Part shown: positions 16,526-64,000 of the stretch, one piece after another
How the letters are laid out: the number at the start of each line of letters is the position of its first letter
Numbering within the stretch: the first letter of the stretch is position 1
NCBI RefSeq assembly: GCF_037392515.1
Contig: NC_090290.1
Location: 55,006,753 to 55,070,752, forward strand
Origin: Haliotis asinina
Lineage: Eukaryota; Mollusca; Gastropoda; Lepetellida; Haliotidae
Direction of reading: 5' to 3'
DNA: 64,000 bases
Made by a program: the position numbers and the translations under genes
The notes under the pieces: model-generated
The model's database searches: none
The model's input: only the letters and a program-made list of their open reading frames with translations
What the model was told of the DNA's origin: nothing

Positions 16526-16575
16526 TACTTTGAGAATTTTAGGTCTTAGTCTCAGGAGCATGGAAATATGGCATC

Positions 16576-16755
16576 AACATGTCACCTCTATGTTTCCTCA
16601 TCTCTGGAGGTACCCCGATCAGCATGTCACTTCTGTGTATTCTCATCTGTGGAGGTACCCCGATCAGCATGTCACCACTGTGTTTCCTCATCTGTGGCGG
16701 TACCCCGATCAGCATGTCACCACTGTGTTTCCTCATCTGTGGAGGTACCCCGATC
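16576..16755. repeat. 45-bp tandem repeat, four units
   Basis: The unit begins CAGCATGTCACCACTGTG and ends GTGGAGGTACCCCGAT; four near-identical copies. 45 bp keeps the frame, so several frames stay open. I read those as by-products, not a gene. Confidence 0.9.
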
Positions 16756-16764
16756 ATGAAAGCA

Positions 16765-46439: not shown

Positions 46440-47345
46440 TCAGTAAGCCGTGTTGGCATGCTGTTCATGAGTTAGATGACATCTTGTAGGGCCACACCGT
46501 TTCAATTTTCTCACCAAGGATGTCTCCAAGTTGTCTATATTTGATGAAGGAGGATCCATTTTCCTTATTTGACGGTCCATGCGGTCCGACATGTGCTCCA
46601 TGGGATTCATGTCTGGGCTTTTGACAGGCCAGGGTAGTCTGTTCACACCTTCCCTCGCCAGGAAATCATCAACTGCCCGAGCACGATGAGGACGAGCATT
46701 ATCGTCTTGTAGCAAACAGTTATTGCCATAAACACGGCGAGCATGGGGCAGGCAAGTGTGTTCAAGGACATGTCGGTAGGATTAACGTTCTTCTGTAGAA
46801 CCAGTAACTCAGTTTTAACATTATAGTGAATGACTACTCACACAAGTACAGATCCATCTCAACCCTGAATGAAACCCTCAACACAGTCATCTCTGAACCT
46901 TTCTCCTTACTGTCAATGTAATCGTCCATCGATCCTGTTTAGCAAGAAACGTAAGTCGCCCGTAAAGATGACGTGACGCCAATGTTGCAGTCTGATGTTC
47001 CTGAGCACGTAACCGCTTGTGTCATCCAGCCAGGAATGGTTGACGCAGTGGTCTTCTAGTTCTGTAGCCTCTTCCAAGAAGTCTTTTGTTCACAGTTTGA
47101 CGGCTAAGTCGGACGTTAACAAGGTGACCCAATCAGTCCCCCAGTGACGTTGAAACGGCGGGTGCGATGTACCAAACGGAAGAGAACACAGTCATGACGT
47201 TGCGTGGTTTTCCGAGGGCGACCTATGGAGACCCTGGGGGTTACTGACTGTTGTGTTCGATGGAGTTGCTTACGTTAAGTTGCAGACCGGTCATGCAATT
47301 TGTAGCACCTGCTCGCCTCATGATTTGATTCCGTATGGCTTCGGC
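46440..47345 (-). mobile_element. Tc1/mariner-type DNA transposon, dead (second, different copy)
   Basis: The minus strand at 46440-46715 encodes LQDDNARPHRARAVDDFLAR, LPWPVKSPDMNPMEHM, SDRMDRQIRK: the C-terminal catalytic part of a Tc1/mariner transposase with both conserved acidic residues (DNARPH and PMEH). Upstream sequence to ~47345 continues as decayed transposase in shifting frames. It is clearly a different family from the element at 32465. Terminal repeats were not found. Confidence 0.8.
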
Positions 47346-48392
47346 ATTGCAGGGACATAAAGTTTCAACACCAAAAGGCGCAGACAGAGGATTTAAGGTC
47401 TGACAACAGCATTGTTTATTTTCAGTTCGGTTCGTGTTTATTGAAGCACTGCCAGGTATCCTTGTTTAAAAAGCACGTGCTGTTGGGTTGACAAGTTGTA
47501 TTTGAGTGAATTTTTGAACTTGCATGCATGAGCAAAACATTAGACATTTTGTACGATCTCCTGGGCAGTGTTCGACTTTTTGCTGGGGGCTGACAGCCAT
47601 TATTGCCATGAGTATACATTGTTTCACATATTTGTTGCCAATGCCCATGATCATATAGGTTTCTTTCACCACTAGGATTAAGCATAAACTCAACCATTAA
47701 GATACACACGTTTCCAGTGTTTTAAAAGTTTGTTTATCAGTTCCATATTTTACCCGGTACAAGTTGGATGGCATTCATTGTAATCCCGACGCATGATATT
47801 TCACCAGCACATGATTTGTAATGGTTTTACCTCGGAAGTCGAGATGTGTTTGCTTCAATGTCATTCTTGTTCACAACAGCGTCTCCCTTGTACTTCAACA
47901 TAACCAAAGAATCCCAATGTTTGGACATTGGCGTGTCAAACCCCGTATATTGGTTTTACGGACGTTCTGGAAAGCCTGGTTGCATGCTGGAGGCTGTGCT
48001 CTCAATCTCTGATACAATTTCAGATGTTTCAAAATTCAGATTCTCATTTTCCGCTTTCACGGAACATCACTTTTTAAGTTGTCGGCGTCCACTTCATCAG
48101 ACGTGTCTGCTTTAATTTCCAATCTTTACCAACAAACTTGATAGCATTGATCACCACATGTTGATCAATATCTTATATGTCCGACTTCAGATAGTATTTT
48201 GTATAACAGTTCATTGTTGACCTCGGCAATTTGATGCGCCTTTTCAGAGAAATAAATTGTCAATAAATGGAGGACTCATACCTGTCGACAGATGTCCAGT
48301 GACATGTATGAACAATACAAACCTAACTCGTAAAGGTGTTTGCCAACAGAAACAAACGTAAAGTTCAAACGAATCAAGTACGCAGAATATTC
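47346..48392. other. gene-poor; one exon-like stretch
   Basis: 47876-48113 (+) follows an acceptor-like TTCTTGTTCACAACAG and stays open to a stop (SPLYFNITKESQCLDIG ... YWFYGRSGKPGCMLEAV). It could be a terminal exon of an extracellular protein or chance. No partner exon was found. Confidence 0.25.
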
Positions 48393-48518
48393 ATAAGAGG
48401 GTAAGACTCTTTATGGATAACAACTTCTGTATTACATATGATGCGACGTTTCGGTATGGATCCTTTATTCTATATGTAATAAAGAAGTTGTTATCCATAA
48501 AGAATCTTACCCTCTTAT
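48393..48518. mobile_element. foldback (inverted-repeat) element, 126 bp
   Basis: The left arm ATAAGAGGGTAAGACTCTTT with ATGGATAACAACTTCTGTATT and the right arm AATAAAGAAGTTGTTATCCA with TAAAGAATCTTACCCTCTTAT are reverse complements over ~46 bases, with a ~34-base loop containing GACGTTTCGG. The right-arm motif AATAAAGAAGTTGT also appears near 18890 and 46047, so it belongs to a dispersed family. Confidence 0.85.
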
Positions 48519-50465
48519 CACTCACCAGCTTCTAATAATGCCAATCAAACAAAACAAATCAGAATATTCAATGGATATTTCCGGGTAAGTTCCATGTATG
48601 GTCGTCTAGCCCAGATTCATGTAGAGCGCAGTCTATTCCTGGTGGTCTATGCTGACAATCTGCTTGGAGGAGGCTATATTCTCGATGTCCAATGATAGAA
48701 AAAGCTTCCGTTGTATTATGAAGGCAAAAGTCATATCCACATTTCACACGTGTGAGTAATATGGGTAACGAGATGTTAGTCATCACACATTGGGGTGTAA
48801 CATTTCTTTAAGAAGTGCAGAAAGTGAAAACGATCTTTCATTTTGTACCTCTTGAATAATGAGGGTATGCCTCAGATTTTATGTATATATGTTCAGTATA
48901 GTATTAGATGACTTCTCGTCAAAATAAACTTTCACAGATTTGGATTTCTTGATGCATATTTTGACGGGACTGCTTTTGAAGGACACCACCATCTTAAACT
49001 TTCAAAAGCTCATTGTGTCTAGATATTCAAGCTGGCACTGTGTACAATATATTGAGTGCTGCCACTTGTGTGAGCATTCAGTGTTTAGTTTGTGGGGGTA
49101 TACAGATAGAAAGTCAAACATACCGGTGATCGTGAGGTTTGAACATGACAAAAGTAATTTGCTTGAGATTGACATATCACAAAATAAAACATGAAAACAG
49201 CTGCATTTGTATAATTTTCTAGGTGTGGCCGACAGCTTTCGGCACGCCTCTCTTAGGTCATCTTTGTTTTACCTGTACAGGTACCTTTATGTTGCACACG
49301 GATTCCCAGATTGTGTATTGTTTGATGCCATTGGATCGTGTAACGTCTGCAGTGGCTTGTCCAACCAAATCCTAACATACCTACTTTGCTCATCTCACCT
49401 GGACATACTCGCTTCCTTATACACATGCAATTTGATGCGTTTTCCTGTCGACCGTATCGAGTTCAAGAACATGCTCAAGGAGTATATTTTAGCATTGCCA
49501 GGACAATGACACAAGAAACAAACTCGAGTCTACTTACTGTGTAAAAACTCTGTCAGGAAACAGTACTTATTCTTTCAATGCCACAGACCTGGGGCCAGCG
49601 CCCAGACATAAACCACCCCTATAACCTGATGCAGAAGTAATGTGTTTTTAAACTACCAGGAACACCAACGAAAACATCTGGGAACACGCTATGTTATATT
49701 ACAAGAACAGAACGCGACATAAAGTGTTTGAGGCAAGCGGACAGCTAATGTAAATAGAAAGTAAGCTGTAGCTAAAGAAACAGTGCGCTGACTTTGTTGA
49801 CAATATATACAAATATTGCAAACTCACGAGTTTGCGTCAATGTTGTCGATGAAGTGATACTAAAACAACCTACCATCTATTGATTTGATACATATCTATC
49901 CATGAAGAGTAAACAACGTAACATGTTGGAGAAAAGGCAGGCATTCTGTGTTATTGATATATCTGATAGCGAAAATTGCATTACCAAGCACAGGCATGTT
50001 TATTCATGAGGATTATTTGTAGAGAAAACAGAATGTTATTTATCTGTCAAGATCTTCAAAGCAAATCAGTATTTGAACTTCAAGTAAATTTGAATATTGG
50101 TAGCTTCCTGAATCCGAATAAACTTTCAAGTGTCTTTTTACACTGTCTCAAGTTGAAGAACTCTCCACACAAGACATGTGGTGCAATCTGCCTGACTGAA
50201 GTACCCTACGTGTTTTACAAGGTGTTTGAATGCCAGAAATGTCAAATGGAGCTATAAGCATGGACACGTCATACGAAACGTTTGTAAATATTTATATAAC
50301 GAATCTATTCAATATGAATAGCATGCATACAAACGTTCAGACGAGGTCTGACTAAAAATAGATTCTATATGCACATTAGCATCAGTTTATCACCACTGAC
50401 GTTTCAGTAAGTATGGAAAGTTTACGGAACGTTGGGAGTATTAAAATGTGAACTGTCCCTGCGTC
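48519..50465. other. no gene seen
   Basis: Frames of 84-100 codons on the plus strand (48940, 49207, 49976) have no recognisable domains. That at 49207 follows an acceptor-like TTTTCTAG but has no partner exon. Confidence 0.4.
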
Positions 50466-50935
50466 CATGCCCATTGGTCTTTTCCGGAGTAGAACTTGAA
50501 AACCGTTCACTATTTCTTCCAACTTGGCACATGGAAGGATCTGGTGGTGTACTGGTGCCTCCGGCAGTTTTGGAATTCTACATGTAATATTTGCTTGCAT
50601 TTCCATGGAAAGTATTTTGACTTTGACTGAAATTGGTGTGTGTGCTCATTTCCGGAGTAGAACTTAAAAGGGGTTTACTATTTCTTCACCAAACTTGGCA
50701 AATAGATAGATCTGGTAGGGTACTGGTGCCTTTTTGGTAGTTTTGGAATTCTGAATAAACGTACTTTTTGTGTTTGATGTGTGTGCTCATTTCCGGTGCA
50801 GGCATTAAAACCATTCAATATTTCTTCACCGAACTTTCCACATAGGTAGGTCTTATGTGTACTGATGCGCTGTGGTACTTTTAGGATTCTGAATAAAATA
50901 TTTAATGTGTTGCAACAAGCTCGTTTTCGATTGAA
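50466..50935. repeat. ~150-190-bp tandem repeat, three units
   Basis: TTTCCGGAGTAGAACTTGAAAA ... CACTATTTCTTC ... GGCACATGGAAGGATCTGG ... TTTTGGAATTCT recurs as TTTCCGGAGTAGAACTTAAAAG ... and TTTCCGGTGCAGGCATTAAAA ..., each followed by CTATTTCTTCACC-like and TTTTGGAATTCTGAATAAA-like blocks. Diverged tandem copies. Confidence 0.75.
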
Positions 50936-53401
50936 TTTGGGGATAGTGCTACTTTCTGGATCAGATCTTAAAATACTTTCAATTCTCTCCTTCCCCTTTG
51001 ACATATACACACCGAAATACTTGACAATCATAACTAGTACAAATATTCTATAGTATTTTGTCACTGCCGGGGATATTAATGGCTTTTTCTTCTACTTCTT
51101 TCTTCTTGCAACGGGAGAAGTTGATGCATTGTGTGTGCACTACGTAGTATTATATAAATCCGCTAATTCAGGTACGACGATGGCCGCCGGACTTTGCACT
51201 AGACCGTAACTGGGGTAGTTTTGGGACCCCATAACATCAGGCTACACACTGTACGCATGAGGAGAGTCGTGAGTAAGTGAGTGAGCTTTTAACGATAGAT
51301 CATCAATATCACATAGGATGACTCCAGGCATAGGATATATACATTGTACACATTTTGGAATAGAACCCTTATTATCGGCGTGATCGCTGTCACAAGTGAA
51401 CACATTAACCTCTGGGCGACCCTGCTGCCCATAAGATGGCATATGACACATTTTTCTGGATTTGTGACGATGGACATCTGCAACTATCATTCTACCTTGC
51501 CTTATTCTGACTTAAATACATACTGGATTGTGATTGGGTGATTCAAGTCATTCCGAAGTACATAACCACGTTATATACCTCTGATTTGTTGGTATCTGAA
51601 GGAAGTAAACGCTGTTTCTTTTAACAGAATAATGGCGGATATCACTGACTGAACAGAACGCAGTTACCTGCACCCTTTTTCTCAGACTGGTATCGTCGCT
51701 GTTTCAAAATCTTTAGTATGTGTATGTATTTATTAGCATCGCCGGCAAATATTGTTGAAAGAAAGGTCGAAATAGTAAATATTAATTTTGTGCCATATTT
51801 CGCTCCGCATAAAAGCCAATGGCTGTTGGTGCAAATTCAGCCATGGTCCATGCGCGTAGCAAAAGTAATGTAAGTCTGCATGGTCCTTAGTGCCGCTAGT
51901 TTTACCTTTCCACACTAGTTGTAATTTTAACTGTGATATTCTAGTTGTTTTACTGTCCTTTGATGACATATTTTTATAATATATTCATATTTCATTTCAA
52001 TTTTACACATGTTCTCGTCAAGATATGACTGAAATATTGCCGATGTGACGTTAAATATTAACTCACTCGACATGGCGTCGTCGCTATTCAATCGTGACAC
52101 ATTACCACGCTCTTGGTAGAGTCGGAATATTGTATTGAATATGGAAATGGCATATATGGTATGTATATATGGTATAATGGTAATATACTATATATTCTCT
52201 GGACAACTGTCCGTTGTTAGGAGCGAAGTTATTACACCAGTCAAGACAAAGTCCCAACCTTCCATGGTGCTCCCAACGATAGAACTACACATAAACTCCT
52301 CTGTTTTACTGTTTACAAGACATTCAGCAGAGTTTATGAAAGACATTCGGGAGCTCTTCCAGATTGGACGGATCAGTGAAAAAAGGATGTCCTGTTATTC
52401 CTCCTAAATTGTCATGTGTCAACTTTTTTGAGAACACCTGTTATGTAACCACATACCTAGGATAAAGTTAGAATGATTGAATGCTTTCAACAGTTCCCAT
52501 CATTACGGAGAAGATTTAGGTAATCCGACGACAAAAAAACTGCTAATGTTAGACTTTTAATGAAATTGCTCCTGTGAGTCAGGTATATATGCATAGACCA
52601 CTATGACAATACTTCGTGACCGCTTTTGTAAAGTTTTGGGCGGTTATGACTCACACTTTGTCCTTTATATTAAACAACATCTATTGCGACTCGATGTTAA
52701 TTACACTCATTCTTGTATTCAGGCTGCCGAACATGTAACATGTATACACTTCTAGTCTGTACCTCCACCTCAGTGCCATATGACTTCCATGTTCATGACA
52801 TTCCATGAATATCAAATCAATATTGCAAACACAGAACTTTCCCAGGATTTGAGACAATTATGTTGCTTTATTTATTACATTCAGTATGTATACATCCCTT
52901 CGACTTTATATTACATTCCTGTTTGATAAAGGTACCAGAACCTGTATCACGAAATAAAAGTAGTTGTTATCCACAAACTGTGTCAATATTGCGTTAAAGC
53001 ATTTCTCCGTCTCTTTTATTCACTTGCAACATACGGATTACTTTGTTTGGATAGATTTCGACGACTGTAAGGAAAACAAAACCATCGATATTTCACACTT
53101 GCGGAGTGATGACGTGCACTGAGTTGTGTTGGTTTAAAGGTTGTATATGCACACACTTTGTAATCTTGGTTTACATTGCTTTGGTTGAGAGAAACGGCAT
53201 CGACTGTGATGCAAAACCGACTCCTTTGGGATCGGAATAGGTACGGTGCAAAACAGTGGTGAAAATCATGAGAATAGACCCCTGAGAACCAAACACATAT
53301 CAAGTGTATGGCACATCGTTGACCATCAGTCGTCTTTATCATCCCGATAGAAAGAATTGTAGGGTACGGGACCTAACAAGTCAACACCGGACCTTGCAGC
53401 C
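50936..53401. other. upstream region of the mucin-like gene; no other gene
   Basis: A fragment of the GTGAGTGAGTGAGC family start lies at ~51270-51310, and an inverted tail (TATTAACTCACTCGAC) at ~52055-52075. The last ~200 bases should contain the promoter of the gene at 53402; no TATA box stands out. Confidence 0.45.
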
Positions 53402-55419
53402 ATGAGTGTATTAATGCTTCTGGTGATGGGGAGTCTTCTGGAAAGCGCACACAGTTACAATGGTTGTGTTGATATTTCTATAAGCGATCTAAGTAATGTG
53501 TCATCAGGAGAGAGGTCATTACACAGTATACTAAACACGACGACAGTTTCCAGTTTAGCAGAATGTGCTGTGGACTGTGTCAACATGGACGACTGTGCAG
53601 CTTTCTTCTATCACCAAACCCTTCAGAAGTGCGTTCTAAACTCAGAACAGGTGTCGCAGTTAAATCTCACGTCAGAGACTGGGTGGATTGGATATGATCT
53701 TCCAGGTAAGCCTTAGTTACGTCTCTTTAGCTTGCCAGGAATCCATGAAGTGGGTGCTAGTCCCAGTTTCACTATGGTTATACTAAATATCATTGCACAT
53801 CAAACAATAACCGTCTAGTATCTCTACCACTTCCACCACTACTTGCGGAAATATAATAGTTTTGAAAGAACTGTAGGTGTTTATCATAGTGTGGGGTTTC
53901 TTGCATTGAAAACATGTCTATGTTTTCTACAAAAAGCAAAATGTTTTTGTGTTTTTGAGGTTTAAGAGAGGTGTATGAAGGTGTGCCTCGTTTAGTGACT
54001 GAATGTTGGACCAATCGCGGGCGTATCACGAACTTAAAGAACCTTCAGCATTGAAATTTTCAGATCCAACCTCGATCTTTCTTTAACACCGTTTGCGGTC
54101 AAAACATCTACTTTCATAAACCAGTAACAGTTAGACTGTGATCACTGTATCTATGTTATTATCATGCAACTATTACTACGAACAAATATCTTTTTAAAGT
54201 TTGAGAAATGTTATTTCCGACTATCGCTGTTTCTGTTATTCATTACTTAATTTGCAATTATGTGTCCTAAACATTTTAGATATCACCAGAAAAGGTGCAT
54301 CAACAACTGCAACATCCTCGTCAGTATTGTCGACTACCATAGCAACATACGCCACGACAGACGCTGTTACACCAGCTGCTGAAACTACTACCATAGATAC
54401 CACTAAGACTACAACGACAGTTGCAGCTATAACTACAACAACTATTACAACTTCAACTTTAAGGGATACAAATACTACTGCGACAGCGGTTCCGGCAACG
54501 CAAACAGCTGCAACGACAACGACAACAGCTGTTCTTACTACAGTTACACCTGCACCGAAAGAGACAACTGCTACATCAGTAACCACAGCATCCCCATCTA
54601 TGCCAACGTCAACGGCAGATGCGTCAGCTACGGCGACGCACACGGCAGGTACTGTGATACATGACACGGCTGCTGCACAGACAACGAAGACAGATGAAAC
54701 TGTTCTTTCTCCAACCGCATCATCGACCTCGGGAATTACGACATCCCCCACTACGTTAGTGACATCCTATACTACGCCAGCATCAACTGCGACAACAGCT
54801 ACAACGACCATAAAGACCGTTGTTCTTACAACAGTGACACCTGCCACAGAAACCGTTGCTATTTCGAATTCGTCGACAACGGCTACGATGTCTTACCCGA
54901 CTACAACAGAAACAACCGCTACACCAGTAACATACCCTACTACAACAGCTTCATCTGCGACGGCAGAGACCTCGACTGCGGGTGTCTCAAGTGCGGTGAC
55001 GACCAGTACATCTACCGTGATACCTAACTATGCCACAGCGACTGCACTAACCACGATTGCTTCACAGACTACGAACAAAGCTAAAACTGCAGCAGTGACT
55101 GATGCAACCGAAAATCCTGTTATTCCTCAGACTTCAACAACTCGTACAAGGCATACTGCATCAATGACATCCCATACTCAGACACCTTCAACTCCCACGA
55201 AAGGGTTCACGCCTACGGCGACTGACACTACAACTGCTGTGATATCTGTTAATGCGACAACGGCTCCACCAACATCTGTATCGACTACAATGACTGCTGC
55301 ACAGACTACGACGACAACTGAAACTGTAACAGTGACTCTTGCAACTGATATTTCTGCTACACCTACATTGACTTCGACGACAGTTGCTATTTCTTCTTCA
55401 ATTCCACAGACATCAGTCC

Positions 55420-55477
<58 letters not shown>

Positions 55478-58400
55478 ACCGGTGGCCCTTGCTACTTCGA
55501 TGGGTTTACCTGCGATGATACTAATCACGACACCAACAATGATGCCTTATGAACCAGCAACTACAAATTTCAGGACAACAGTGACACATGTTACTTCTAC
55601 TCCTGCACCGATCTCTCAGTGGGTGGAATCTGTTCCTCAGTTCTCCTCACAGTTTGAGAATGAGGAGTAAGTAAATCCAGATTATTTTGTACGTATCAAG
55701 TTGTTAGTATCTCACTAAATGCGGTCTTTACTTGTTTGACACCATTTGCTGCTACACACAATACATGCACGTAACAACCTGGGCCTCATTTCACAAACCA
55801 CTAAGGTGATCGTAAGTCACTAAGATAACCTTTGTGCCATGTTAAAGTTATGGTTAAGCTCCATTTATATGATCTAAATATTTGTCTTTGATTTATATGG
55901 CTGTATAAATCAAAAGCGGTACAACACAAAATCACAGTAAAGGTATAACAGCAGCTGCATAAATTTAAAGTCAGTATAATACAAAAGAGCAGGAACTTCA
56001 TGAACAAAGGAAGATGTGGTAATGTTCCCCCAGCACCCCCAATGATTTCCAGATATCTTATGCGTATCCAGGGAAGAAATCACCAGCAGGCAGGTCCTAT
56101 TGTAACTTGTAATGTAATCTGATCTGAGAGGCAAGGCTCTCATAACTGGGAGTAATTTCAAGAATGTTCCGTAACTTCCTTGGAACCGAATGTAATAGAA
56201 AAGGCAAAATAGTTCATGCGATACATTCAAGAATTCTGTCCAGATGTTGCACACGATTAAATATAGTAGACATCGCGACCCCCAGTTACAGCATAATGCA
56301 CCTGGAACGTTTTCATACATTGATTAAGAACACGTTAACTCTTTTTTCCAATACCTAATGTAATCACTGACTTTCAGTGGCCCAATCATATCTCATATGT
56401 ACTCATTAATTTTGCCTTTACACTAAATGGTTTTTGTATGATAGTCAAGTTTACACTGGTACTGAAGTTTTACATTCATCCTATCTTCACTAATCTCATA
56501 TCTGATATTAGCTGGAGTGCTGAAAAGATAGTTGGACCCTCGGATGTGTACCCCTTCTATGGTGATGACCCTGGTGCATGGGCCTCAGCTGAGTGGACCG
56601 GTATTGAGTGGATAGAGGTAGGTGAACCCAGTACCAAACACACGGTGCTGACGAGGTCGTAAAGGGAGATAAGTGAGGAATGTTGCCACCGGTATTGAGT
56701 GGATAGAGGTAGGTGAACCCAGTACCAAACACACGGTGCTGACGAGATCGTAAAGGGAGATACGTGAGGAATGTTGCCACCGGTATTGAGTGGATAGAGG
56801 TAGGTGAACCCAGTAAATAAAAACACACGGTGCTGACGAGGTCGTAAAGGGAGATAAGTGAGGAATGTTGCCCTCGGTATTAAGTGGATAGCAGTAGGTG
56901 AATCTAGTACCAAACACACGGTGCTGACGAGATCTCGTAAAGGGAGATAAGTGAGGAATGTTGCCACCGGTATTGAGTGGATAGAGGTAGGTGAATCTAG
57001 TACCAAACACACGGTGCTGACGAGATCTCGTAAAGGGAGATAAGTGAGGAATGTTGCCACCGGTATTGAGTGGATAGAGGTAGGTGAATCTAGTACCAAA
57101 CACACGGTGCTGACGAGATCGTAAAGGGAGAGAAGTGAGGAATGTTTCCACCAGTATTGAGTGGATAGAGGTAGGTGAACCCAGTAAATAAAAACACACG
57201 GTGCTGACGAGGTCGTAAAGGGAGATAAGTGAGGAGTGTTGCCACCGGTATTGAGTGGATAGAGGTAGGTGAATCTAGTATCAAACACACGGTGCTGACG
57301 AGATCTCGTAAAGGGAGATAAGTGAGGAATGTTTCCACCAGTATTGAGTGGATAGAGGTAGGTGAACCCAGTAAATAAAAACACACGGTGCTGACGAGGT
57401 CGTAAAGGGAGATAAGTGAGGAGTGTTGCCACCGGTATTGAGTGGATAGAGGTAGGTGAATCTAGTACCAAACACACGGTGCTGACGAGATCTCGTAAAG
57501 GGAGATAAGTGAGGAATGTTGCCACCGGTATTGAGTGGATAGAGGTAGGTGAATCTAGTACCAAACACACGGTGCTGACGAGATCGTAAAGGGAGATAAG
57601 TGAGGAGTGTTGCCACCGGTATTGAGTGGATAGAGGTAGGTGAATCTAGTACCAAACACACGGTGCTGACGAGATCTCGTAAAGGGAGATAAGTGAGGAA
57701 TGTTGCCACCGGTATTGAGTGGATAGAGGTAGGTGAACCTAGTATCAAACACACGGTGCTGACAAGTTTTGTCAATGTTGCCTTCCTGGAAGGACTCAAC
57801 ATATTGAAGGTGTTCAATACTTTCTATAAGGCTATTCTTTTCAATTTGCACGTGAAGCCACAATCTTGACATGTGTTTTTAAATATACATGGAGACACTA
57901 TCATTGTGGTACCTGGTGTGATAATTGCCTGGTTCTTAAAGTGCAACAACTAACTGATATATGTATTGAAACGCGAGTATTTATATCTTTAAATATTTCA
58001 GTACAGGATACAAATGACGTGTAGCAACACTGTAACAATAATGATATCATTGTTAACGTATGCTGACAATTTGCTACAGTCTATGAGGATGGGGTTGCTG
58101 ACAATCTTGCTCCAAAAGCTGCTCTGATTATACATGTTCAGGTTCAGTTCTCCCAGTCGCTGTTCATCACCCAGGTAGACATCTACGAGACCTTCCATGC
58201 TGGAGGAGTGAAGGAGGTGTCTGCTCGGAACCCGTCTACGTCCAGCTGGGATGTGTTGTGGCAGGTGCCTTCAGTCTCTGTCATTACTTCCAGCAGGATC
58301 TTCTCCCCACCCATACAGGTGTGTACATAGACATCTCCTCCCCACCAATACAATTGTGTACATTAGACATCTTCTCTTCACCAATACAGCTATGTACGTA

Positions 58401-58983
58401 GACATCGTCTCCCCACCAACAGAGATGTGTTCACAGACATCTTGCCCCCACCAATGCAGGTTTGTACACAATATCTTCTTTGATGCAATGCAGATGATGT
58501 GATAATGCTAATAGTTATACTGTATCCTCTACCAGTTCTGTGTATTCATAAATATCCTCTTTCAAGCAACTCTGGTATTCACAGAGACATTTAGTTTTAA
58601 CCAATACACGTGTTTACATTTTCTACTCACCAATTTCTTTGCTGTGATAAAGTGAGTGAAAGGGGTTTTAGGAAAATACCAACAATGTCACGTTTAACAT
58701 GACAACTATATTACCAATATCAACAATATTGGGATACCGGAAATGAGCTTCACACATTGTACCCCCGCTGGGAATCAAACTTCACTCTTCGACGCGAAGA
58801 GTGAACGCATCAAAGACTAGGCTACCCAAAGACTACATTGTTTGCTCTTGATGGTTATAATTATTGTTCTTTCATCTCCAGCAACCAACTTATAAAACTG
58901 ATCATCTGCGGATCGAGGTCGACTGCAGCCAGGCAAACCATTGGGTTGAGCTGGACGCTGTGAAGGTCACTGGATATACGTAG
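53402..58983 (+). CDS. secreted PAN-domain / Thr-rich mucin / discoidin-like protein, five exons
   Basis: Exons: 53402-53705, 54280-55666, 56512-56617, 58142-58318, 58882-58983; phases 1, 2, 0, 0 all fit and give 691 aa. The start has a good context (GCAGCCATGA) and a signal peptide MSVLMLLVMGSLLESAHS. Exon 1 encodes a PAN/apple-like module (CAVDCVNMDDCAAFFYHQT...C). Exon 2 encodes ~460 residues dominated by Thr, Ala, Ser, Val, a typical O-glycosylated mucin segment with a ~20-residue Thr run. Exons 3-5 encode a beta-sandwich with AEKIVGPSDVYPFYGDDPGA, IEWIEVQFSQSLFITQVDIY, ETFHAGGVKEVSAR and HWVELDAVKVTGYT. That pattern (GPPDVYPRYGD..., EFIEVQF..PV...IYETFHAGAVV) is known from the N-terminal half of FBXL4-like proteins. 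There is no membrane anchor, so it is probably a mucus or matrix protein. Introns 3 and 4 begin with tandem arrays. Confidence 0.85.
55421..55478 (+). repeat. ACT trinucleotide microsatellite inside the mucin exon
   Basis: About 19 ACT units encode the poly-Thr run. Length polymorphism would change only the number of Thr residues. Confidence 0.9.
55778..55860. repeat. MITE-like fragment in intron 2
   Basis: CTGGGCCTCATTTCACAAACC, CACTAAGGTGATCGTAAGTC and GTTAAAGTTATGGTTAAGC resemble the GGGCCT...ATCTTAG palindromic MITE family at 17859. Partial and low certainty. Confidence 0.35.
56590..57765. repeat. ~90-95-bp minisatellite of 13 units made from exon 3 end plus splice donor
   Basis: Every unit contains GGTATTGAGTGGATAGAG followed by GTAGGTGAA, then CACACGGTGCTGACGAG, CGTAAAGGGAGATAAGTGAG and AATGTTGCCACC. 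The first unit is the real 3' end of exon 3 (codons TGIEWIE) with its donor. 12 of 13 units keep GATAGAG|GTAGGT intact; the fourth reads GATAGCAGTAGGT. Variants with CCCAGTAAATAAAA occur in units 3, 7 and 9, showing higher-order homogenisation. Confidence 0.95.
58300..58495. repeat. ~36-bp tandem repeat made from exon 4 end plus splice donor
   Basis: The unit CTTCTCCCCACCCATACAG|GTGTGTACATAGACAT begins with the last 19 bases of exon 4 and its donor, then repeats about five times with divergence. Only some later units keep GT at the donor position (the unit ending CCAATGCAG|GTTTGTACAC does). A decayed further unit may lie near 58570-58615. Confidence 0.8.
58645..58830 (-). repeat. tRNA-type SINE, family A, inverted, in intron 4
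   Basis: The reverse complement of family A: AGTGAGTGAAAGGGGTTTTAGG at the tail, ATGAGCTTCACACATTGTAC, inverted B box (GGGAATCAAACTT) and the head near GACTAGGCTACCC. Confidence 0.75.
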
Positions 58984-60444
58984 TTGCATGATTGCACAAG
59001 TGTAAGCTCATCCCAAATAATCAAGAAATCTCGAGTTGATACGGGAGATATCCGAACATACAACGTAGTGTTTTTGTTGCCGAGATCTATGACCTTTGAA
59101 CGTTCGGCATGTATTGGAATGGCAATCGGAGGAACAGTCTGGCTCTGTGGGTTGTGGGGGACATGCTATGACTTTGTGAATGTATAAAGTCCCACTCCTG
59201 GACATGTAAAACAGAAAAGCATCCTGCGAAACGTTCATTGTAGACAAGTTGCCTGACAAATCAGACATATTTCAGAGGATAGTTTGGCAAATGGAGCGAT
59301 ACGATGACGAACATTCTCATACCATCATGCATACTATAATAACATGTACTTACAATAGTGTTCGGATGCCGTGTTTGTTATGTGTCGCTATGGTTACCTG
59401 CGTCACTGTTCGCACCTGTATCCTGTGTGCAAACTTTGATGTCCGATGTTCTACAATTCAGCTTACACGCGTGCTTTCTCCATGTTTTTGCCATGCTTAC
59501 ACACTTCAGAGGAAGCGGATTAGTAAGATGCTGGCAGTTACGCAACCCCTAAATAGTGAGTAACTGACTGGCGTTGCGGTCGTAAAGCCATTACGCACAG
59601 GACGTAGCCAAATTTGATCGTCCTCGGTGGAAGGCAAAGAGTAGTATGTTTCGATGTCTGGCACGCTTGTGAACGTAGAAATATTAATGGTCCAGGTATT
59701 AGTCCTGTGGCCGTCTGTATATGTTTGAGTTTGGACCCAACAATTCAGTGATGAAAAGCATGAATACCAGTCTATTTCGAGTACGATCTCACGTGTCAAC
59801 CACGTCAGCGAGACTGATGACCCCATCCCGTTAGTCGTCTCGTACAGTAGGTGTGGGTTGCTGGTTTATGAGTATCCCGCTTGGTCCAGACTGCCATAGG
59901 GATAGCTGCATCAGTTATTTTACATTGAATTTTAAGTCTGGTTATTGATCGTATACATTTGTTGCAGAAACCTTAGTTTCATTACAAAAGTGTTTGCTTG
60001 TTTCAAATTGCCTGTTTGTTGATGATAGTATAATCTAGTTTCATAAACCGTCCCGACTCATGAGTATTATCCCAGAAAATAATTTAAATGCCATAAATGC
60101 CAAATGCCATGTTTTATGAACCATCTGTAAAATAGTATTTACATTCCAGCTTCACAGATGAAATGTAAAATCCCATCCATTGAGAAATGATCAGGTATAA
60201 CCGCTCTCGACTAGCAGCATGGATCACTCCAATATGTCCGAAATAGAAAATGCTGTTGTCCAACGCCCAGTACGAGCGAAATGTGAATGAAGGGATACAT
60301 AAAACATCGATGGAACCCGTTGTTCTCTCTTGCTTTATTTCAGCAATTGCCATCATTTACAGGTGGCGGTTTCCACCACGAAAGAACTCTGCATACACAA
60401 CTTGTAACAATGTGTTGGATACAGTCTAGGTTAAATTAAATACA
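58984..60444. other. 3' region of the mucin-like gene; SINE C fragment
   Basis: Should include the 3' UTR; no clear AATAAA was picked. An inverted SINE family C fragment lies at ~59770-59895 (GTCAACCACGTCAGCGAGAC, CATCCCGTTAGTCGTCTCGT). No gene was recognised. Confidence 0.45.
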
Positions 60445-60595
60445 TGTTTTAATTGGGATTACACTTTCTCAGTAAAGTACACATTCTACTACTTTTGTTG
60501 GGTTGAGTCCCATCCGGGGTTCGAACTCAGTCATGCACATAAAGTCAGGCACCTAACCGAGTCCGCCATTCGCGTATTGATGGGCTAACTGAACA
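60445..60595 (-). repeat. tRNA-type SINE, family B, inverted
   Basis: On the minus strand: head GGTTAGGTGCCTGACTTT, B box GAGTTCGAACCCCGG, body TGTACTTTACTGAGAAAGTG, TAATCCCAATT. It is the best-matching partner of 4924-5065. Confidence 0.7.
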
Positions 60596-60717
60596 CACTC
60601 ATATTCTTTTTGGTACAGAGCAGTTAAAAAGCGCTTACGGTAAGGTTTGAAATACCTTCTCATTTCGATTATTAAATAATCAGTCATAAACTGATAAACG
60701 GCATTCGTGTTCAACTA

Positions 60718-60968
60718 TTATGGTGTCGATGCAATCTTCTCCCAAGCAGGATGGGAACCTATGACCTGACTGAAGCCACTTCTATAATATGTTCGACAGA
60801 CAGTGTCACGAAATGTGAAAAATGTGCATCCATAGCGTCTGAGGCACGAGTCCGCGCAGTCAAGAACGTTGGCACCAAAACCGGAAGTCAGGAGAGAAGA
60901 CCCTTCGGTTGCAGACCTTGCAACACGAACGAAGGCCACAGTGTTGTTTATACACGGTGCGACTGTAT
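60718..60968 (-). CDS. terminal exon of a PAN/apple-domain protein (partial gene)
   Basis: The minus-strand exon begins after the acceptor CCTTCTCTCTACAG at 60968 and ends at TAA (60718-60720). It encodes TVAPCINNTVAFVRVARSAT ... DCADSCLRRYGCTFFTF ... VCRTYYRSGF ... ending IASTP: ~83 residues with six cysteines in the C...C...C..C...C pattern of PAN/apple modules, as in the neighbour at 53402 (CAVDCVNMDDCAAFFY). Upstream exons, including any signal peptide, are not identified and may lie beyond 61 kb. Orientation is tail-to-tail with the mucin-like gene, suggesting a local PAN-domain family. Confidence 0.65.
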
Positions 60969-61014
60969 CTGTAGAGAGAAGGCATTGCTGATCGTATATA
61001 TAAGCACAAAAGAT

Positions 61015-62089
61015 AGTGAGTGAGTAAGTTAGAATTTACAGTCATATCGTCAATATTTCAGCCATATCTTGACTAAAAGAGGTTATAAAGGATTATGAAT
61101 TCAAATAGCGATTTAATGCTGTTTGAATAATTTGTCAATGAAAACGGTAAACCTATTGAAAAATATTGTTTTCTCAGTCACTTCCAAAGTTGTGACACGT
61201 TTTTAAGATTTGGAGTTAACTTTGTCCGCTGTTGATATTTTGAAAGTGATAAAATACCTTATTTCACAGAAATAGTTTTACAAAAAGTTATGTTTGGCAT
61301 GAAATTTTTTTCCATGTATGCATGAGGCGTCATACTCTGTGATTAGAGAATACACATGAACATCAATTAAGCAGCATTTGAATCCAAAGGCAATGTTTAG
61401 AGTTTGTTCCAAACAGACGAATAATCACATAATGGAATACACCTGCGCAACACGTGCTTCACACAATATCTCAGAAACTATGGTTCCTATTTTCACGTGA
61501 CTTCAAGGCACCGATTTAAGAAATAGTGTCAGTTTAAATTTCAGAATGTTCATTACAGTCTTATGAACTGCTTTAGGAGACAAGAAACAACTAAGCTTTT
61601 CTTGACAAAGAAAGACATCGACCTGCAGAAAACTGACGATGGCAAGATCCTGGCAAACTGGCATCCAGGAACAACATCAGTGCTAAACTGAACATTAACG
61701 ACACGGTCATTGAAACCGATGACTTGATCCAGCAGTAGGTAGTGAGAATCTATCTGCACGACTAACTGCATGACGAGACGCGCACAATGCACTTTGAAGT
61801 TTACGGTGTAGACCCTCGGAGAGCAATAGAAATTATTTTTATAAAATGAGAAAGTCTCGTGTAGAAGATTCAAATCTGACCTGCATAATCAAAGACTGAA
61901 CAGACGAAATGATTCTACCCACAACCCAGCTATATTCTGGAAATAAATTCGTTCATTTAGAAAGAGATCAAATCCTAAAAGTAATATTTCAAAAAGTGAA
62001 TGGATGACATATTTCAAGATAGTCTTTTTCTAATGATGCCGTTTCTTTTCAAGTGATGGATGAAGATATTACGTTTATAAGTGTTTAAT
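61015..62089. other. no gene seen; repeat-family start
   Basis: GTGAGTGAGTAAGTTAGAATT with CAATATTTCAGCCATATCTTG at 61016-61070 is the opening of repeat family D or a relative. The 106-codon minus-strand frame at 61553-61873 has no recognisable domain. Confidence 0.45.
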
Positions 62090-63660
62090 ACTGTATTTGA
62101 AAGTGTTTCGTTTCCAGAAAGTTGATCAGTTATCGTCCCTATACAAAAAGGAGGCTCAAGACAATCCATATAATTATAGAGGCACATCTTTAATGAATGG
62201 TATTGGCAAAATATTTACAACTGTTTAAAATAACAGAATCTCAAACTGGTCAAATCTAAGGAACTGCATTTCTGAATGCCAGTCGGCTTTTAGAAAAGAT
62301 TATTCAGCTACTGGCCATATCTTTACACTATATGCAATAATACAAGAGTGTCTGTCGTGTAATATACACAAACTCTAGTTAGCATTTGGTGACCTTAAGA
62401 AAGCCTTTGCCTCTGTGGATTGTTGGAAATTATGACAGTGCTTATGAAAGTCTGGCCTACATGGGAAAATGTATTCTGTTTTAAAATCTGTGTATTTGGA
62501 TATTATATCATGTGCTCGTTGTGGTGATGATGCTTCCGACTTTTCGACTGTCCCATGGGAGTTAGGTAAGGGTGTATTTTAAACCCTATATTGTTTTCCT
62601 TCTTCACAAGCGAACTGTTACGATATTTCAAATTCAGGTAAACATGGGGTGTAAATGTTTCCAAATGTGATTGAAATGTTATTCCCCCTTTTTATCGATG
62701 ATGTTATTGTAGTGTCAGATACTACTGTAGGTCTACAACACCAACTTATTATGGAACGCTATACAAATGGATGGAAAGTATTAATTTTGTTCATTTTGAA
62801 AAAAGAAACCAACCACGTGGTTATCTTGGTGTAGTGTTTTCCCATACCATGAACTTTGAAATGAGCGTTATAGGCCAGAAATGACGTGTCAAGAAAGTTC
62901 TTATTAATGACATGTGACATTCCCAAAACCTTGGAATTTTAACCCCGAAAATATATCTTAAAGTGTTTGATGCACAAATCCAACCGATTCTGCTCCATGG
63001 GTCTGAAATGTGAGGATTCCAACGTCATGAGTGTCTAGAGAAATTACACCTTTTAGCGGCTAAAACATTTTTATAGCAACACCAACTTGTATGGCTTATT
63101 GAGAATGCGGAAGATATCCGATATATATGAATTTAAAAATCAGATGTTTAAAGTATTCGATTAGGTTAAAGATCCTTGGAATGCACCAACAAAGAATCCC
63201 AAAACTAACATAAAACATGCTTGTATTTTTGGTTGATAGGGGTAAGACAGCATGACTGTCCCATATGAAAAACCTTTTATAAGGGCAGACGAGTTTCAAT
63301 AAAGAGACGTTTAATGATATGTCCATTATGTACCTCGGCCATAGAAGATGATCTTCTCTTCTGTTTTGCATGGCCACATTATGGTGATTTATGAAAAAAA
63401 AATATATCCCAATAACTACCTTTCGAAATATCAATGTTTCCAAAAATGAAAATGGAAATACGTAATCTTGCACTCCGTGTACTAGTAACCATGCTGTTAT
63501 CCTTAGAAGCAATATCTTATTTGTAATTTCTTAAGTAAAATGTCTATAACATGTACTGATAATATACTTGTATTACTTGTGTATGGGCCGGAGGTTTTAT
63601 GTACAGTAAATATCTTGGTCTTGTCTATCTTTGCCGCCAAGGAGGCTGCGGGCTTCTGGC
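62090..63660 (+). mobile_element. decayed LINE (jockey/CR1/RTE-like reverse transcriptase)
   Basis: In shifting frames on the plus strand: IVPIYKKGG-like start (QKGGSRQ...NPYNYRGTSLMNGIGKIFT), SECQSAFRKDYSATGHIFTL, AFGDLKKAFASVD, FPLFIDDVIVVSDTTVGLQ (the catalytic block, with DD), YLGVVFSHTMN, VFDAQIQPILLHGSEM, and a C-terminal CPLCTSAIEDDLLFCFAWP. This is the usual order of a molluscan APE-type LINE reverse transcriptase. Many stops and frame changes; old. The upstream endonuclease part is missing. Confidence 0.8.
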
Positions 63661-64000
63661 CTTAGGGAACAGGTTGACATATTCGGAAACGTTTAGCTAG
63701 GTTCAGTAAATTGATATTTAACGTCACGTCGGTAATATTTTCAGTCGGTAAAATTTCAGCTTGGTTCAGGTCCATAGGAAACCTCAAGGACATGGCGTAC
63801 AGATCACTGGCCTGATGCTATCCTCTGCACAACTAACGCTGAAAATGGCTTCCAAAGCACACGCCACAACATGTATCGTTTGCAACTTATAAAAACGGGT
63901 GGTGCTTTATTAGCGCACCACTTTATTATTATATGTGTATATATCATACTTACATCACATGTTCATAAATGATCGTTGTTTCCTTTTCAAAAGATTCGCT
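63661..64000. other. no gene seen
   Basis: A weak repeat fragment (ATATTTAACGTCACGTCGGTAA) lies near 63712-63735; nothing else was recognised up to the window edge. Confidence 0.45.

Follow-up and report, generated by a model that had tools for sequence, protein, structure and literature searches.

How does a transcript find the end of an exon when that end, together with its 5' splice site, is repeated many times over at the start of the following intron? The question is raised by a gene of Haliotis asinina in the window analysed here, a stretch of 64,000 nucleotides (NC_090290.1, positions 55,006,753 to 55,070,752), where units containing the end of exon 3 and its donor follow one another into intron 3. 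We consider it probable, at roughly 80%, that this array (array 1) is a minisatellite of the type known as a mirage: a duplication across an authentic exon-intron boundary, expanded by unequal exchange, of which the first copy is still the working donor.

The gene is PAN/mucin-like, lies on the + strand of contig C11 and consists of a PAN-domain exon, a long Thr/Ser-rich exon and exons 3 to 5; all its features described below are on that strand. Abalone egg-lysin (PF01303) scores above the cut-off in this genome and in 0 of 14 control genomes, which points to an abalone or a near vetigastropod relative as the most likely source. Exon 1 (53402-53705, the exact start being a prediction) opens with a possible start methionine, continues with a PAN domain (Pfam PAN_1, E=1.9e-9, region 53363-53716) and ends at the donor CCAG|GTAAGC. 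The PAN exon of the paralog in L067 is 88% identical to it. Exon 2 (54228-55666, start approximate; open frame 54198-55670) is Thr/Ser-rich and mucin-like, and its donor GAGGA|GTAAGT has a phase compatible with exon 3. Exon 3 (56512-56617, 106 nt, translation DWSAEKIVGPSDVYPFYGDDPGAWASAEWTGIEWIE) ends at ATAGAG|GTAGGT, an exon end that paralogs share. Intron 3 (56618-58141) holds the 12 downstream units of array 1, comprising 11 intact decoy donors and one mutated one. Exon 4 (58142-58318, 177 nt, phase 0) ends at ATACAG|GTGTGT, and exon 5 (58882-58983) closes the protein with AVKVTGYT and a stop codon. Joined in frame, exons 3, 4 and 5 read ...WTGIEWIE|VQFSQSLFITQVDIYETFHAGG...SPPIQ|QPTYKTDHLRIEVDCSQ... 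Pfam and PDB searches with this joined domain returned no match; it is similar to the galactose-binding-like domain found in FBXL4 proteins.

The placement of the exon 3 end rests on paralogs. Searching the animal's own genome with the exon 3-5 domain gave 20 matches, from which we formed a set of ten distant paralog loci, excluding the downstream copy and the close paralog described below and counting L043 and L040, which are one locus, once. In 10/10 of these loci, exon 3 and exon 4 give separate matches that lie hundreds of bases from each other, so intron 3 is old and positioned at about WIE|V. The exon-3 matches stop at query residues 44-50 in nine of the ten and reach residue 58, beyond a stop in the intron, in the other one, while the exon-4 matches start at residue 42 or 43 in seven loci, at 39 in two and at 48 in one. 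The original prediction had taken the first unit to be exonic, and the exon end placed by the paralogs agrees with it. At the 3' side, the most likely last base of intron 3 is 58141 (acceptor TTCAG|GTTCAG, frame kept), and the acceptor at 58142 is supported by the close paralog, which has an in-frame stop upstream of TTCAG|GTTCAG. An alternative model shifts the acceptor by about 50 bases, from 58142 upstream to GCTACAG|TCTATGAGG, and the donor by 4 bases, from GAG|GTAGGT downstream to GTAG|GTGAAC. We rejected it as the main model, as the close paralog has an in-frame stop there and in 7/10 distant paralogs the alignment starts at residues 42-43 (WIE|V). The pair may serve a minor isoform.

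Array 1 begins within exon 3. Tandem Repeats Finder (TRF) places it at 56597-57763 with a period of 93, 12.6 copies, 91% matches and a score of 1904; splitting at the exon motif divides it into 13 units of 91-94 bp, each made of the exon-3 end, the donor and about 70 intron bases. A unit starts with GGTATTGAGTGGATAGAG or a near copy (18 exon bases; 21 from the TRF start), followed by GTAGGT. Donor positions are 56618, 56709, 56800, 56894 (mutated), 56987 and 57080 for units 1-6 and 57171, 57265, 57358, 57452, 57545, 57636 and 57729 for units 7-13. The donor GAG|GTAGGT is intact in 12 of the 13 units, GAGGTAGGT, and unit 4 reads GCAGTAGGT. Two claims made beforehand from the letters alone are thereby confirmed: the unit does carry the true donor, as exon-3 end and GAG|GTAGGT, and 12 of 13 units retain it, unit 4 being the sole mutated one. 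At the junction between units, the intron end GTTGCC abuts the exon's ACCGGTATT, and in this junction the duplication across the exon-intron boundary is visible. Similarity is high throughout units 1-12, and the first is not distinct among them; the last is truncated and diverged, its remnant meeting unique sequence near 57783. Dimers and tetramers of unit types are repeated along the array (TRF period 371; alignment read by eye). On the minus strand, a 362-codon open frame runs across array 1 (56557-57645); it is a by-product of stop-free repeats and bears no gene-like sign.

A second array, absent from the original prediction, begins at the exon 4 donor (58319). Array 2 (58298-58479) contains 5.2 copies of a 35 bp unit made of the last 21 bases of exon 4, the donor and about 14 intron bases; in the window it is old and diverged. 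Both arrays are also present in a close paralog, L024, on the minus strand at C11:55.61 Mb, 0.55 Mb from the window gene, whose exons 3, 4 and 5 are identical to those of the window at 98/106, 173/177 and 86/102 positions. Exon 4 is more alike than exons 3 and 5, perhaps through gene conversion around array 2. Array 1 of L024 has two units, with donors GAG|GTAGGT and GAA|GTAGGT and an identical GTTGCC-ACC-GGTA junction. Its array 2 has 23 units with the consensus ATCTTCTCCCCACCAATACAG|GTGTGTACATAGAC; GT is in place in 20/23 and the exact CAGGTGTGT in 17/23. Unit numbers of arrays 1 and 2 are hence 13 and 5 in the window and 2 and 23 in L024. Since L024 carries both arrays with other copy numbers, both are older than the divergence of the paralogs and were resized after it.

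The gene also has a near-identical copy. The segment at 46674-64000 (+) of the window, whole gene included, is repeated 24.5 kb downstream (C11:55077950-55095279, offset 24,527 bp) at 99.96% identity (17,330 aligned bases, of which 4 are mismatches and 3 gaps), and both arrays are identical in it. This copy may have arisen by recent duplication or in the assembly, and it provides no independent evidence on the arrays.

As the original prediction rightly stated, use of a later donor would insert array sequence into the mRNA. Read on into array 1, exon 3 continues as VGEPSTKHTVLTRS and meets a TAA at 56660-56662, in frame with exon 3, that would stop any transcript from a later donor; whichever later array 1 donor is taken, the in-frame stop comes after 14 extra codons. 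Read-through of exon 3 in L024 gives VGESSTEHAVLTRS and then a stop at the same codon as in the window, and beyond exon 4 both genes continue with VCT and a stop. With in-frame stops following exons 3 and 4, decoy use would lead to truncated protein or decay.

We next compared the donors as U1 targets, expressing strength as the energy of the duplex with the U1 5' end, a crude measure and not a trained splice-site score. Only 17 of the 4152 + strand GT sites of the window pair with U1 at least as well as the array 1 donor, and 12 of the 17 are found within array 1, an enrichment that is not due to chance. All 12 intact donors have the identical duplex energy of -11.2 kcal/mol, so that no local feature favours the first one. 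The donors of exon 2 (-8.0) and exon 4 (-9.1) are both weaker. Predicted RNA accessibility does not set donor 1 apart among the array 1 donors, the last donor being the lowest, and the array 1 unit does not fold better than shuffled versions of it (z=0.39). RNA structure that hides the decoys was accordingly dropped as an explanation. An Rfam search of 56400-59000 gave no match, and a tRNA search of the window found none.

The donor is conserved to an ordinary degree. Across units 1-12 of array 1, 38 of 83 nine-column windows have at most one unit changed, the donor window (changed in 1/12 units) being one of them, and this test of column variation gave no signal of selection for decoy donors. 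The suggestion that the array exploits its decoys is thus so far without support, the donor 9-mer being no better kept than the unit as a whole. Nor could meaning be attached to donor retention, as in array 2 of the window GT is in place in only 2/5 copies, the real donor included. In array 2 of L024, whose units are young and related, donor columns carry 0.67 changes per column versus 1.27 in the others, which is weakly in the direction of conservation. Donor retention accompanies array youth.

The structure is not without precedent, as amphioxus mirages, first given that name for Adh3, share its anatomy. In Adh3 and globin genes of amphioxus, the available text describes tandem repeats across exon-intron boundaries, with length and somatic instability and unit lengths of 10-160 bp (PMC3087553); regular splicing is reported there as undisturbed (PMC3087553; PMC3902484). 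The units of 91-94 bp and 35 bp found here lie inside this range. Like array 1, the amphioxus cases (Adh3, BflGb6, BflGb9 and others) are minisatellite-like duplications spanning the boundary; in the portions available, many units keep AG/GT, array size is variable and units at the edges escape homogenisation. This known kind of repeat occurs here in a gastropod, and doubled: each of two successive donors in the gene has its own array, with up to 23 units. According to the same portions, BflGb6 duplicates the acceptor side, whereas both of our arrays are donor-side. Compared with the length instability in amphioxus, counts here differ between paralogs (13/2 for array 1, 5/23 for array 2) and are identical in the copies 24.5 kb apart.

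Other relatives are more distant. Human IFI6 (6-16, G1P3) has an exon 2 minisatellite whose units copy the 5' splice site at the exon end, as here, and the accessible part of the report has it supply alternative donors, two downstream units being used (PMC4526556; citation in PMC2572611). In Rogers-model intron gain, exemplified in the accessible text by potato RdRp, a tandem duplication carries splice signals (PMC4974935); at our locus an existing intron was enlarged and no new one gained. A variable-length intronic minisatellite is described for an abalone gene, with no splice site mentioned in the available text (PMC6905558), and tandem repeats are reported, in the part at hand, to alter both exonic and intronic parts of recent human paralogs (PMC2812944). 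Our literature search, in which subscription journals were poorly covered, found no mollusc mirage.

For array 1, the mirage reading would begin with a tandem duplication across the working 5' splice site of exon 3. Expansion within the intron would have followed by unequal exchange, to which the recurrence of unit types in dimers and tetramers points. Being the sole copy attached to exon 3, the first would remain the working 5' splice site, and the later copies would leave with the intron. Use of the first donor is suggested by this attachment, by the stops and by the amphioxus reports; its choice may come about by exon definition or by the order of synthesis. The equal U1 pairing of 12 donors, an accessibility without preference and the use of downstream units in IFI6 may be held against it. 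The equal pairing and the IFI6 precedent would suit a minisatellite with multiple donors of the IFI6 type, in which several units are used and some mRNAs contain array units, most of them truncated or degraded. The 11 intact decoys match the first donor in U1 pairing, units 2 and 3 would lengthen exon 3 only modestly (from 106 to 197 and 288 nt), and downstream donors are used in the human gene as far as its report is available. However, all later array 1 donors meet the stop after 14 codons, the available amphioxus reports have mirages leave splicing undisturbed, and array 1 shows no donor conservation, so that we regard the use of several units as unlikely, though far from negligible. The repeats also differ in size: the IFI6 unit is 12 bp long, compared with 35 or 91-94 bp here.

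A regulatory role, in which the decoys would either tune protein output by diverting part of the transcripts into decay or recruit U1 to the intron and so guard it against premature polyadenylation, would accord with donor arrays at two successive donors in both paralogs, with in-frame stops at matching places in both and with the fewer changes in the donor columns of L024 array 2. Yet the reversed copy numbers (13/5 versus 2/23) would be odd for a tuned device, the array 2 decoys of the window are decaying and the array 1 donor is conserved no more than its neighbours, which makes such a role improbable. It is very doubtful that misassembly produced the array or the duplicate. The 99.96% identity of the downstream copy might hint at it, but the units of array 1 differ among themselves in an ordered fashion, and an independent paralog with 84-98% exon identity holds both arrays with other counts; an artefact could affect the downstream duplicate, hardly array 1. 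We give almost no credence to a new intron that arose when an exonic AGGT segment was duplicated in tandem, as in the Rogers model. The units carry AG|GT, and those of array 2 have a pyrimidine-rich stretch before the AG, but exons 3 and 4 are split at about the same place in 10/10 distant paralogs, of which 9/10 are without a TRF array at the exon 3 donor. Intron 3 is therefore older than array 1, and the shared intron position refutes an AGGT-duplication origin.

The near-identical donors, which differ chiefly in their distance from the exon, would reveal whether donor choice follows position, in favour of the copy synthesised first and joined to the exon, rather than sequence, and the reversed copy numbers in L024 offer a second test within one gene family. 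Gene prediction calls for caution here, since arrays of strong intronic donors need not mean alternative exon ends. If donor duplication is harmless because the exon-attached original wins, fewer arrays would be expected at acceptors.

In order to see whether such arrays recur, we scanned the genome (1.14 Gb) for three strong donor motifs at a spacing of 21-51 bases. Three exact copies of CAGGTAAGT occurred 227 times versus 41 for the reversed motif, a few large arrays dominating the matches listed, whereas the looser CAGGTRNGT triplets showed no clear excess (3361 versus 3184). Over the first 57.7 Mb of C1, a count by eye among the matches listed gave 24 distinct arrays versus 17 for the reversed motif. 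Twelve arrays were read: L069 and L073 from the exact motif, L077 and L078 from the looser one and, with their flanks, eight more of the looser motif on C1 (L081-L088), which were taken in list order with one low-complexity array skipped. Three of the twelve lie at an exon end by homology, four probably do so, one lies beside a donor, three (L082, L084, L085) show no exon sign at the array and L083 could be placed in none of these groups.

Homology identified the exon ends at L073, L078 and L087. The L073 exon matches DUF4487 with E=0.0058 alone and with E=1.7e-14 when joined with the next exon (the better of two trial joins). L078 is a tetraspanin: its own exon alone is unmatched, but joined at the visible acceptor it yields E=7.4e-10, compared with 1.6e-6 for the next exon alone. 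At L087 a maltase-glucoamylase match (E=1.8e-6) reaches within two residues of the array. The four probable cases (L069, L077, L081, L086) have an open frame that enters the first unit, as judged by eye. Family searches gave no match for L069 and L081, two weak ones for L077 (ABC_export, E=0.048; sodium symporter, E=0.059) and a helix-turn-helix match at E=0.1 for L086, which means little. In L088 a glycosidase exon (E=4.1e-7) is followed, 24 bases past its donor, by the start of the array. L064, found through its likeness to array 2, likewise shows no exon where its array lies. With L083 omitted, the open frames upstream of the other 11 sampled arrays exceed in length those at 23 edges of control arrays (p=0.012); this difference is weak evidence because random positions also give long open frames, 36% of them at >=40 codons.

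Arrays with a period of at least 12 and at least three copies occupy 8742 of 149,235 bases (5.9%) in a non-random sample that includes the arrays studied, so a donor inside some array is not very rare. Among the matches listed for the looser motif, the first 72.5 Mb of C1 contain 28 distinct arrays by eye, which scales by length to about 440 genome-wide. If 3 to 7 of 12 hold, there would be about 100-260 anchored arrays in the genome, an order of magnitude extrapolated from a small sample. The near-equal counts of looser and reversed triplets and the general abundance of arrays speak against it. We see an even chance that donor-anchored minisatellites are a recurrent class, perhaps with at least 100 members, that arises at working 5' splice sites and is tolerated through commitment to the first donor. 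Each array would then be a natural competition of several to 23 near-identical donors per transcript. If arrays are as common here as the small sample suggests, mirages would be a general route of intron growth, beyond lancelets.

Finally, some further features of arrays were observed. In a distant paralog (L041:268-1160), a 21-bp x 42 array lies just after the exon-3 donor GAG|GTAAGT, with GTATGT in most units; it is possibly an independent donor-linked array. L087 and L088 (C1:17.754-17.760 Mb) are two minisatellites within about 4 kb, at or beside donors and both adjoining glycosyl hydrolase family 31-like exons, and are likely to belong to one gene, with paired donor-linked arrays as in the window gene. 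The 32-bp unit of L081 (C1:3.25 Mb) looks almost entirely exonic (28 exon bases and GTAC), the next copy completing each donor. In the window itself, a 45-bp x 4 array at 16573-16756 contains GAGGTACCC.
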